DNA from: Sphingomonas parva (ex Maeng et al. 2020) | Lineage (GTDB): Bacteria > Pseudomonadota > Alphaproteobacteria > Sphingomonadales > Sphingomonadaceae | Length of the DNA: 64,000 nt | Assembly (NCBI RefSeq): GCF_004564275.1 | Contig: NZ_SPDV01000005.1 | Location: 1-64,000, forward strand | Reading direction: 5' to 3' | Part shown: piece after piece, positions 3,001 through 5,625 of the stretch | How the letters are laid out: the number at the start of each line of letters is the position of its first letter | Numbering within the stretch: position 1 is the stretch's first letter | The notes under the pieces: generated by a model | The model's input: the letters and a program-made list of their open reading frames with translations, nothing else | Database searches by the model: none | What the model was told of the DNA's origin: nothing | Program-made: the position numbers and the translations under genes

Positions 3001-3099
3001 GACATCGACCTGTTGCTGGCGCTCCTGCGCGTCTGGATTGCCCGTGCGCGCGACGACGTGCGCTCGGCGCAGGGTGACAGCCTCAACGCGGCGGAATGA
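1..3099 (+). CDS. Hybrid histidine kinase with HAMP repeats, GAF and two receiver domains (5' end outside window)
   Basis: The reading frame is open from base 1, so the start lies upstream. The visible protein opens with at least three HAMP-type repeats of about 92 residues (recurring LGGQA and LTDNVN motifs). A GAF domain follows (about residues 215-385), then a long coiled coil, a HisKA domain with the phospho-accepting His in [10 protein letters not shown] (near residue 473), a HATPase with GTGLGLSIS, and two C-terminal receivers (LIVEDD and LIVDDD starts; Asp in ITLDLG and ALIDIM). Multi-HAMP hybrid kinases of this kind are cytosolic sensors in the fungal Nik1 style; the stimulus is unknown. 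Its stop codon overlaps the next gene in an ATGA, so the two are probably co-translated and work in one phosphorelay (inference). Confidence 0.93.
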
Positions 3100-5216
3100 G
3101 CAAGAGCGGAATGCGTATCAGTCCCCGAATTGCCCGCGATGGTGCGGCTCTGCCCGAGGCTTCGGGCGCGGCCTCGGACGAGGCTGCGGAGCGCCCGCGC
3201 GTCTTGGTCGTCGACGACGACGAGCGCAACCTGCTCGCGATCCGCACCGTGCTGGAGGACGTGGGCGACATCGTCGAGGCACGGTCCGGCGAGGAGGCGC
3301 TGCGCCACCTGCTGAAGGGCGATTTCGCGGTGATCCTGCTCGACGTCTACATGCCGGGGATCGACGGCTACGAGACGGCTCAGATCATCCGCAGCCGGGA
3401 GCAGACCAAGCGCATCCCGATCGTTTTCCTCTCGGCGGTCAACAAGGAGGCCGAGCACCTGATCCGCGGCTATTCGATGGGCGCGGTCGATTACGTGTTC
3501 AAGCCGGTCGATCCGGTGGTGCTGCGCTCGAAGGTCGCGGTCTTCGTGGACTTGTTCGCGATGCGCCGGGAGATCCAGCGCAAGGCGCTCCAGGAGCAGG
3601 CGCTGCTCGACGCCAACCTTCGCGCCAACGCGGAACGCCTCCGGGTGGAGCAGGAGCTGCGTCTCGCCGAGCAGCGGCAGGCGGCAATCATCCAGTCGCT
3701 GCCGATCGTCCTCTATCTGGAGGCGCTCGACGCCGCCCCGCGCGTCCCCAAGTTCGTCAGCGGCAATTTCGGGGCGCTGACCGGCTATGCGTTCGAAGAG
3801 ATCCAGAAGACTCCGACCCTGTGGGCCGACCGGCTCCACCCGGACGACCGCGAGCGGGTCGGGACTGCGCTGGCCGGGCGCCCGCACGGCCGTTCGATGG
3901 CCGTCGAATACCGCTGGCAGCATGCCGACGGCCAGTATCGGCATTTCCTCGATCAGGCGGTCCTGCTTCGGGATGCCGACGGCAAGCCGATCGAATTCGC
4001 CGGCACCCTGCTCGACGTCACCGATCGCAAGGATCTCGAGAGCCAGCTCGTCCAGGCGCGCAAGATGGACGCGATCGGCAAGCTCACCGGCGGCATCGCG
4101 CACGACTTTAACAACCTGCTTGCCGCCGTTCTCGGCGGATTGGGCCTGATCGAGCGGCGGGCCGAGCTGCCCGAGGAGCAGCTCAAGATCCTGCACATGA
4201 CCAAGCGCGCGGCCGAGCAGGGTTCGGATCTCGTCGGCCGCCTGCTCGCCTTCGCACGCCGCCAGCAGCTCGAGCCTGCGTGTATCGAGATCCCGGCGCT
4301 GGCGACGGCGGTCACCGACCTGCTCGCCCATACCCTCGGCGGCCTTGTCGAGCTCGACTGGCAGATGGACGATGGCCTCTGGTGCGCCTTCGCCGATCAG
4401 GCCCAGCTCGAGCTCGCCTTGATGAACCTGATCATCAATGCCCGCGATGCCATGCCGGATGGCGGCACGATCTCTGTCTCGGCGGAGAATCGCGACGTCG
4501 GCGAGGCGGGTGAGGACGGGGTGACCGGCGGCCGCTACGTGGTGCTGACCGTCGCGGACAGCGGCTGCGGCATCTCCCCCGAGCTCCTCGAGCAGGTGAT
4601 GGAACCCTTCTTCACCACCAAGGAAGTGGGCAAGGGTACCGGCCTCGGCCTGTCGATGGTCTACGGCTTCGCGAAGCAATCGGGCGGCGCCTTCCGGCTG
4701 AACAGCATCGTCGGCGAGGGGACCCGCGCCGAGATCTGGTTGCCGCGCGCGGCCGAGAACGTCACGGCGCGAGCCGACGATCCGGAACGTCGGCGGCTCG
4801 GCGATGCGCAGGCGACGCCGCTTCGTATCCTGCTGGTCGACGATCATGACGGCGTTCGGGCGACAACCGCAGCGCTTCTCGCCGACCTGGGTCACGAGGT
4901 CCTCGAGGCTTCGGACGGTCGCGAGGTGCTCGGCATGATCGGCGACACGGCGGACGGAATCGACCTGCTGATTACCGATTACGCGATGCCGCACGTCTCC
5001 GGCGCCGAGGTGATCCGGCAGGCCCGCGAGCTTCGTCCGACCCTCCCCGCGATCATCATCACCGGCTATGCCGACGCCCAGTCGATCGCCCGGCGGCCGG
5101 ACAACGTGCAGGTCCTGGCGAAGCCGTTCACGCCCCACCAGCTGAACGCCGCGATCGTGGGCGCCGCCGAGGCCGGCGCGGCCGCTTCCCAACCCCTCAA
5201 GGCTGCCGCCTCCTGA
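3096..5216 (+). CDS. Receiver-PAS-histidine kinase-receiver hybrid sensor protein
   Basis: A 706-residue protein that starts at an ATG overlapping the previous stop by four bases. Domains in order: receiver (about 36-155, VVDDDE, acceptor in LLDVYMP, Lys in VFKPVD), a coiled coil (about 160-200), PAS (about 200-320), HisKA with [11 protein letters not shown], HATPase with GTGLGLS, and a second receiver (about 575-690, LLVDDHD, acceptor in ITDYAMP). There is no membrane segment. The N-terminal receiver suggests it takes phosphate from or is controlled by the kinase upstream, then passes signal by its own kinase core and C-terminal receiver. A minus-strand small RNA candidate converges on its 3' end. 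Confidence 0.93.
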
Positions 5217-5269: not shown

Positions 5270-5353
5270 ATGAAAAGCCCCCAGCCCTTTCGGGCCGGGG
5301 GCTGGGTGGTGATCAGTGGGGTGGGGGGGGGATCCTGATCACCGCGGGGGGAC
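5270..5353 (-). ncRNA. Candidate stress-regulated small RNA with C-rich loop
   Basis: No protein gene explains this stretch, but the minus strand shows a complete small transcription unit of about 84 nt. It has an EcfG-type promoter ending at 5360, then a stem of nine perfect base pairs (GGTGATCAG at 5308-5316 with CTGATCACC at 5335-5343). The stem's 18-nt loop (5317-5334) reads on the RNA as a run of nine C followed by ACCCC. A GC-rich terminator hairpin with U-tract follows on the same strand. The architecture resembles GsrN of Caulobacter and other alphaproteobacterial C-loop RNAs, which are general-stress regulated and pair with G-rich ribosome-binding regions. The 5' end is estimated from the promoter spacing. 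Identity as a GsrN homologue is inference. Confidence 0.6.
5273..5303 (-). terminator. Rho-independent terminator, minus strand
   Basis: Stem AGCCCCC-x-GCCC pairs with GGGC-x-GGGGGCT around a four-base loop at 5288-5291. On the minus strand the stem is followed by TTTTCATTT, while the plus-strand side has no T-tract. It therefore serves a leftward transcript, the candidate small RNA, not the kinase gene ending at 5216. Confidence 0.72.
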
Positions 5354-5359
5354 TGCCTG

Positions 5360-5384
5360 AACGTCCTTCCTTGAGAGCGGTTCC
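5360..5384 (-). promoter_or_regulatory. EcfG (general stress sigma factor) promoter
   Basis: Read on the minus strand, GGAAC (5384-5380) and CGTT (5363-5360) are separated by exactly 16 bases. That matches the EcfG consensus GGAAC-N16/17-CGTT of the alphaproteobacterial general stress response without mismatch. Transcription would start near 5353 and run left into the small RNA. Confidence 0.72.
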
Positions 5385-5457: not shown

Positions 5458-5625
5458 ATGACCGTGGACAAAGAAACCCGGGAAGAGCGGCGCGAACGGC
5501 AATCGCGCGAGGTGGAGGAGAGCCAGCAGGCTCTGCGTCAGAGCATCGAGAAGACCCAGAAGCTTCTCGACGAATCCGAAAACATGCTGAAGCGCCACCG
5601 TCGGGAGCGGGAAACCGACGACTGA
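5458..5625 (+). CDS. Small highly charged coiled-coil protein, 55 residues
   Basis: A short frame from ATG 5458 to TGA 5625 encodes 55 residues rich in Glu, Arg and Lys (it begins MTVDKETREERRERQ and ends ERETDD). The pattern is one amphipathic helix with heptad-like Leu spacing (ALRQSIEKTQKLLDESENML). There is no signal or membrane segment. I do not recognise a function. It is transcribed away from the EcfG promoter at 5360-5384; no clear promoter of its own was found. The ribosome-binding site is weak (cagag). The opposite-strand frame over this stretch reads like a mirror artefact. Confidence comes from amino-acid character only. Confidence 0.55.
   Translation: MTVDKETREERRERQSREVEESQQALRQSIEKTQKLLDESENMLKRHRRERETDD

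Follow-up and report, generated by a model that had tools for sequence, protein, structure and literature searches.

A probable C-tract small RNA gene with an EcfG-type promoter represents a multi-copy family in Allosphingosinicella-type sphingomonads

Introduction

To our knowledge, GsrN is the main source of what is known about small RNAs (sRNAs) in the alphaproteobacterial general stress response. The bacteria considered here are sphingomonads, to which Erythrobacter litoralis belongs. GsrN is a sigT/EcfG-dependent sRNA of Caulobacter crescentus that activates katG, and its recognition of G-rich sites is attributed to the six tandem C of the 5' loop; pairing through this C-rich 5' loop was predicted for 32 of the 67 GsrN-enriched RNAs (excerpts of PMC5869019). 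According to the same excerpts, gsrN typically lies near ecfG, nepR and phyR, C. crescentus being an exception, BLASTn matches of GsrN were obtained in Caulobacteraceae only, and a figure legend gives no apparent gsrN-like gene for E. litoralis (PMC5869019).

Other described systems serve for comparison. The alpha-r14/NfeR1 (RF02344) or 'cuckoo' anti-Shine-Dalgarno sRNAs carry three hairpins, each with CCUCCUCCC (excerpts of PMC10746234 and PMC3927594), and the anti-Shine-Dalgarno motifs of NfeR1 silence ntrB (PMC10746234). In Rhodobacter, an RpoHI/HII promoter drives CcsR1-4/CcaF1 together with a DUF1127 gene, and RNase E carries out the processing (excerpts of PMC10253847). Excerpts of PMC13414033 name the FnrS sRNA in Sphingopyxis granuli and contain neither GsrN nor EcfG. 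Here we describe an sRNA gene in a 64,000-nucleotide stretch of Sphingomonas parva DNA (the window, on contig C5), for which an original prediction from the sequence had proposed a GsrN-like RNA driven by EcfG.

Results

Architecture of the sRNA locus

The gene lies on the minus strand between two plus-strand genes, a location that the original prediction had given correctly. The features of the locus are as follows.

5384-5380, minus strand: -35 element GGAAC of the EcfG-type promoter, read from the sequence; identical in 21/21 members of the family described below (family A)
5363-5360, minus strand: -10 element CGTT, separated from the -35 element by a 16-nt spacer, read from the sequence; [CT]GTT in 20/21 family A members
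5353-5270, minus strand: putative transcript of about 84 nt, deduced from promoter and terminator; fold z -5.9
5351-5346, minus strand: single-stranded C6 tract at the putative 5' end, read from the sequence; a 5' C tract occurs in 21/21 members
5343-5308, minus strand: stem-loop with a 9-bp stem (GGUGAUCAG/CUGAUCACC) and an 18-nt C-rich loop, from sequence, fold and double changes of pairs
5303-5273, minus strand: intrinsic terminator with a 12-bp GC-rich stem including GU, a GAAA loop and a U run, from sequence and fold; the stem is retained in the family with pair changes
3096-5216, plus strand: gene of a hybrid histidine kinase (REC-PAS-HisKA-HATPase-REC, by Pfam), convergent to the sRNA
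5458-5625, plus strand: 55-aa ORF, read from the sequence, of unassigned family and without a Pfam match, divergent from the sRNA

The promoter GGAAC-N16-CGTT (5384-5360) can be read directly, as can the nine perfect stem pairs and the loop of C9 followed by ACCCC, all of which had been claimed. The arms GGTGATCAG (5343-5335) and CTGATCACC (5316-5308) form nine Watson-Crick pairs and enclose the loop GATCCCCCCCCCACCCCA (5334-5317), with the composition GAU-C9-A-C4-A. We placed the putative 5' end 7 nt past the -10 box, near 5353, and the 3' end in the T-rich stretch. The stem had been put within 10 bases of the promoter; this distance holds when counted from the putative 5' end (about 10 nt), but not from the -10 box, from which the stem is 16 nt away. 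The second C tract, C6 at 5351-5346, had been overlooked. The terminator with its U-tract was found as predicted, with a stem at 5303-5292/5287-5276 and a T run at 5276-5273. Fold prediction for the RNA from 5354 to 5266 returned exactly these two hairpins at -43.6 kcal/mol (z -5.9), and 0/200 dinucleotide shuffles were equally stable. Rfam 15 gave 0 matches at the gathering cut-off in the window. A 9-codon GTG-to-TGA frame within the sRNA was considered as a product and rejected, because C-run lengths vary among family members; by eye, the frame is not preserved.

Members and distribution of family A

A 131-base query including the promoter was compared by BLASTN with 98 genomes, its own among them, and yielded four homologs from the same genus (E <= 1.1e-4). 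All four carry GGAAC-N16-[CT]GTT, and one (L005) has three compensatory changes within the nine-pair stem. A covariance model (R1) was built from the window copy and these homologs, with the promoter excluded, and searched in 26 genomes of the genus and 397 of the family. Subsequently, 71 R1 matches from the upper part of the genus and family lists were read with their surroundings. Among the best 17 of these 71 (at least 45.9 bits), 16 have GGAAC-N16-[CT]GTT ending 3-7 nt ahead of the model start and one (L094) has GGAAC-N16-AGTT. The four lowest members (L096, L097, L045 and L098; 43.5 to 33.9 bits) were accepted on C loop, terminator and promoter, and R1 ranks some non-members higher: one outscores L096 and L097, four outscore L045 and thirteen outscore L098. 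Overall, GGAAC-N16-[CT]GTT stands at a fixed place in 20/21 members of family A against 0/50 of the other R1 matches; the 20/21 are not independent events since members share descent, although spacer and stem have widely diverged. Among the 16 members outside the R1 training set, 15 have the promoter. A refitted model (R2) scored the same 21 members at 52 bits or more and the next genus match at 37.4, a gap that is expected because the 21 sequences trained R2. In sum, comparison strongly supports the predicted sRNA with a C loop and, by sequence, makes its transcription and dependence on EcfG probable.

The 21 members occur in 11 of the 26 genus genomes, with one to four copies each. In the remaining 15 genus genomes the family is missing or undetected, and hence it is no core part of the stress response. 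The S. parva genome holds two copies, the window copy (A) and a paralog (B) at contig C55:10404-10485. A 428-aa ORF is found no more than a few kb from the B-type copies of three genomes (G000, G014 and G015); it is citrate synthase in S. parva and reads similarly in G014 and G015. Another family A copy sits between two ORFs that look by eye like lexA and a competence gene. Scanning of named genomes for the exact pattern returned four matches, of which L033 (Sphingomonas deserti) and L034 (a metagenome-assembled genome, MAG) are copies already in the family and the remaining two are both in MAGs. No Rfam family reached its gathering score in 20 of the 21 member loci (L098 left out), and the sub-threshold matches were judged to be chance or likeness. 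Family A belongs to Allosphingosinicella-type sphingomonads.

A check put forward with the original prediction, whether relatives conserve the promoter, the stem and the C loop, was passed within the genus; family A was not found outside it. R1 and a family A model including the promoter (R3) gave nothing convincing outside the genus in the 397 family genomes, nor did R2 in 396 genomes of the order, an absence that is unproven because searches of more than 40 genomes scored only 8-11 first-pass candidates per genome. Among the 33 R2 matches listed (26 from the order, 7 from the genus), only L136 has GGAAC-N16-CGTT, located 47 nt before the match, L132 has a promoter-like site with a 15-nt spacer, and many are, by eye, C-rich hairpins and terminators just past reading frames. 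A simpler pattern of promoter, C4 and C4 matched 62 of the 397 family genomes compared with 74 for a reversed control, and hence showed no excess outside the genus.

Two kinds of C-loop hairpin were noted in passing during these searches. At L131-L134, L142 and L148, from several genera, a hairpin with a C-rich loop and a terminator follow shortly past reading-frame ends (by eye), and these are candidate 3'UTR-derived sRNAs. In genus g94, intergenic C-loop hairpins were seen at L071 (G131), L136 (G199) and L137 (G253). At L071 a second such hairpin lies directly upstream of the match; the g94 hairpins are perhaps a cuckoo-like array.

Promoter, pairing and C-richness are retained

The promoter motif alone is not enriched: GGAACN16-17CGTT occurs 53 times in the 4.49-Mb genome, and the reversed motif 47 times. 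The case rests on conservation. Over the 21 members, the -35 element is identical in all and the -10 element has a mean pairwise identity of 0.90, whereas the spacer and the 20 nt upstream reach 0.38 and 0.35. In the model-fitted alignment, which is biased towards the structure, double changes were found in 17/21 pairs (78 cells), a level reached by 0/500 shuffles, and 96.5% of cells were paired compared with at most 51.7% when the alignment was slid; 8/9 stem pairs of the C-loop hairpin show double changes. An unfitted MAFFT alignment gave double changes in 12/22 predicted pairs, four of the 22 falling in promoter DNA and being uninformative on RNA, and in 7/7 predicted stem pairs.

In all 21 members there is a 5' C tract, with a longest run of 3-9, and the 11-23-nt loop is C-rich (58-92% C), with a longest run of 4-18. 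The members differ in the sequence of the stem and in how long their C runs are. Thus promoter, pairing and C-richness are retained, and sequence is not. On these comparisons, the sRNA gene of the window is very probably real.

The general stress locus and two further C-rich RNAs

The genome encodes NepR, PhyR, an EcfG-type sigma factor and a HisKA_2/HWE kinase at one locus on contig C20, where EcfG-type sites precede nepR and the ORFs holding ecfG. Hence, the factor expected to read the promoter of the window gene seems to be present.

Within this phyR-nepR-ecfG locus, a further GGAAC-N16-CGTT site was found on the minus strand from 9546 of contig C20 (L158:3547 minus). It is followed by GGATAGTGACCTTTTGCCCCCCCGCTCTCGCTATCC and then by a second hairpin whose loop contains a C10 run; we call the putative product RNA X. 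A pattern for RNA X allowing up to 3 mismatches matched 44 places (15 exact) in 37 of 127 family genomes, and part of the inexact matches must be chance, as the reversed control gave 17 places in 16 genomes. Reading of 30 X loci identified the first stem in 23 by a mechanical test. In 22 of these 23, GGAAC-N16/17-[CGT]GTT lies 9-12 nt before the motif (L231 is the one without), and the seven loci lacking the stem lack the promoter as well. Compensatory changes were found in 16/28 predicted pairs (16 sequences). RNA X lies beside matches to PhyR, EcfG, NepR and the kinase in 18/18 loci examined (L158, L286-L299 and L221-L223), comprising 14 chosen with at most 2 mismatches, three of genus g70 and the S. 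parva locus. The likeness to GsrN that the original prediction saw in the window RNA holds for its design; by genome position RNA X is the better match, and is a likely GsrN counterpart of sphingomonads. In one genome of the same genus (G007) X is present and family A undetected, which makes family A look like an addition and not core.

A third type, RNA Y, consists of CACCGCCGAGACCCCCCCTCCCGTCCAAGCGGCTGGTGATACGATCCC and a terminator, has a C-rich loop, and was found in 39/127 genomes with 0 control matches. At 30 Y loci the promoter-like site is GGAAC-N16/17-CATT in 28 (27 with N16), with GGTT in one and CTTT in one. The Y loci (L256-L285, L300-L305, L171, L172, L179 and L183) come from other sphingomonad genera, and their promoter-like site with CATT is unusual and conserved. 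In six loci read in longer stretches, PhyR is 170-320 nt away in 6/6, EcfG was found in 4/6 and NepR in 0/6. Motif searches within 1.5 kb for PhyR, NepR or a sigma factor had at first been negative at all 60 X and Y loci read; the later positive neighbour calls come from tblastn with the S. parva proteins in 12-kb stretches. Neither X (S. parva copy) nor Y (one copy, 22 bits with ar14) scored above the cut-off of any Rfam family. C runs apart, X, Y and family A have no sequence in common when compared by eye.

Discussion

Proposed function and alternatives

The window gene probably encodes a trans-acting sRNA of the multi-copy family A, transcribed by EcfG, whose C tracts pair with G-rich mRNA starts. 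Under stress, PhyR would free EcfG from NepR, and EcfG RNA polymerase would then transcribe the gene into an RNA of about 84 nt that stops at its own terminator. Two C-rich tracts of this RNA would be left single-stranded, the first at its 5' end and the second in a loop whose stem is free to vary in sequence. Most likely, the tracts would pair with G-rich sequence in or close to the ribosome-binding sites of many mRNAs and alter their translation or stability under stress, like GsrN and the rhizobial anti-Shine-Dalgarno sRNAs. Transcription, EcfG dependence, target pairing, the sign of regulation and the identity of the targets are what we infer in this proposal. A rough target scan of 51 predicted window genes gave slightly stronger pairing at starts, with a mean of -10.6 kcal/mol versus -9.3 kcal/mol inside (p 0.02), a comparison that is biased because start sites were picked by Shine-Dalgarno strength, and we claim no target.

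The loops of family A are mostly C, variable in length and with little fixed sequence, which suggests that composition rather than exact sequence is kept. Such loops would also suit a real EcfG-dependent RNA whose C-rich strands titrate Rho, Hfq or a cold-shock protein under stress rather than pair with mRNAs. Rho prefers unstructured C-rich RNA. In each RNA of the family, only the 11-23 nt of the loop and a brief 5' tract are available, which is short for a Rho loading site. In design, moreover, the family is close to sRNAs for which pairing with mRNAs is established or predicted (excerpts of PMC5869019 and PMC10746234), and we regard protein titration as unlikely.

About half of the members have a G-rich neighbour that could itself be the main partner, acting as a sponge or antidote, so that a housekeeping G-rich RNA and a stress-induced C-rich RNA would form a switch. 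By pattern, 11 of the 21 loci (12 if L094, judged by eye, is counted) have a TATA-like stretch, CGGGGACGGGAGATAGTCGCC, a hairpin and a terminator in succession 4-125 nt upstream on the same strand. Paralog B has this element too, and the G-rich 5' end of the element can pair with the C loop (-9.6 to -23.9 kcal/mol). A run of G will pair with whatever run of C it meets, though, and against composition-matched shuffles loop pairing reached 0.05 in 4/13 tests and 5'-tract pairing in 0/13. The window copy, in addition, has no such neighbour within 700 nt; we regard a G-rich RNA as an improbable main partner. The G-rich element was seen at L062/L159 (contig C55 of S. parva), L039, L041-L044, L061, L063, L064 and L094-L096, and has no Rfam match.

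Very improbable is a cis-acting role, in which antisense or convergent transcription would control the neighbouring histidine kinase gene. The RNA does head towards the 3' end of that gene, and an ORF judged by eye as the same kinase adjoins the sRNA in two other genomes (G014 and G015). The putative transcript nevertheless ends about 50 nt short of the kinase stop codon, and other members lie in the other surroundings described above, near citrate synthase or between the lexA-like and competence-gene ORFs. That a random EcfG-like motif merely fell beside a terminator and a C run is scarcely credible, as 21 members share promoter, stem and terminator with compensatory changes, even if the promoter motif alone occurs at background frequency.

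Implications

Family A is a good lead on a layer of regulatory RNAs in the general stress response of sphingomonads. A covarying C-tract sRNA family with EcfG-type promoters is now defined in sphingomonads, and X and Y lie beside the stress locus itself. Speculatively, this layer may consist of several unrelated C-tract sRNAs with ECF-type promoters, either X or Y being fixed beside phyR-nepR-ecfG and A amplified, with A copies often sponged by a separately promoted G-rich RNA, giving a stress-released switch over G-rich mRNA starts; we give this whole picture a small chance of being right. Should the RNAs be confirmed, C-rich sRNAs acting post-transcriptionally would be a general trait of this stress response, one that has repeatedly arisen or been turned over, and the paralogs could serve as a system for studying how near-homopolymer seeds gain target specificity.

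Comparison with known sRNAs

Like GsrN, the window RNA has a general-stress promoter (by sequence, with [CT]GTT in 20/21 members of family A) and a 5' stem-loop that exposes a C-rich loop with a run of at least six C, its targets presumably being G-rich. Unlike GsrN, it comes in several copies and carries an additional C tract at the putative 5' end, and the window gene lies on contig C5 whereas NepR-PhyR-EcfG lie on contig C20, a position that RNA X fits instead. We propose, by analogy of design and not by sequence comparison, that the window RNA works like GsrN, and do not file it as GsrN because it lacks the typical locus.

With the alpha-r14/cuckoo sRNAs, family A shares hairpins with C/U-rich loops, freely diverging stems, a terminator hairpin and several motifs per RNA, and one member (L063) shows a weak Rfam similarity to alpha-r14 (27.8 bits, below the family cut-off of 58.8). 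The window RNA itself had no ar14 match up to E 10. It has one loop hairpin and a terminator instead of three hairpins, CCUCCUCCC is absent from the loops and 5' tracts of all 21 members, and NfeR1 has an RpoD-type promoter unlike the EcfG-type promoter of family A. The window RNA is thus not ar14/cuckoo. Nor is it CcsR: CcsR1-4/CcaF1 are likewise multi-copy homologous stress-related sRNAs of alphaproteobacteria (excerpts of PMC10253847), but family A consists of single genes with an EcfG-type promoter, and the adjacent 55-aa ORF, being free of Pfam matches, has none to DUF1127.

RNA X, from the same genome, has in common with family A the EcfG-type promoter and the C-rich hairpin loops, and differs from it in a conserved sequence (GGATAGYGACCTTTTGCCCCCCC), two C-loop hairpins, a fixed locus and a wide distribution. 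No description of RNAs of the A, X or Y type was found in a literature search limited to open-licence PMC articles and to excerpts of them. Apparently, family A is an undescribed family of a known kind.
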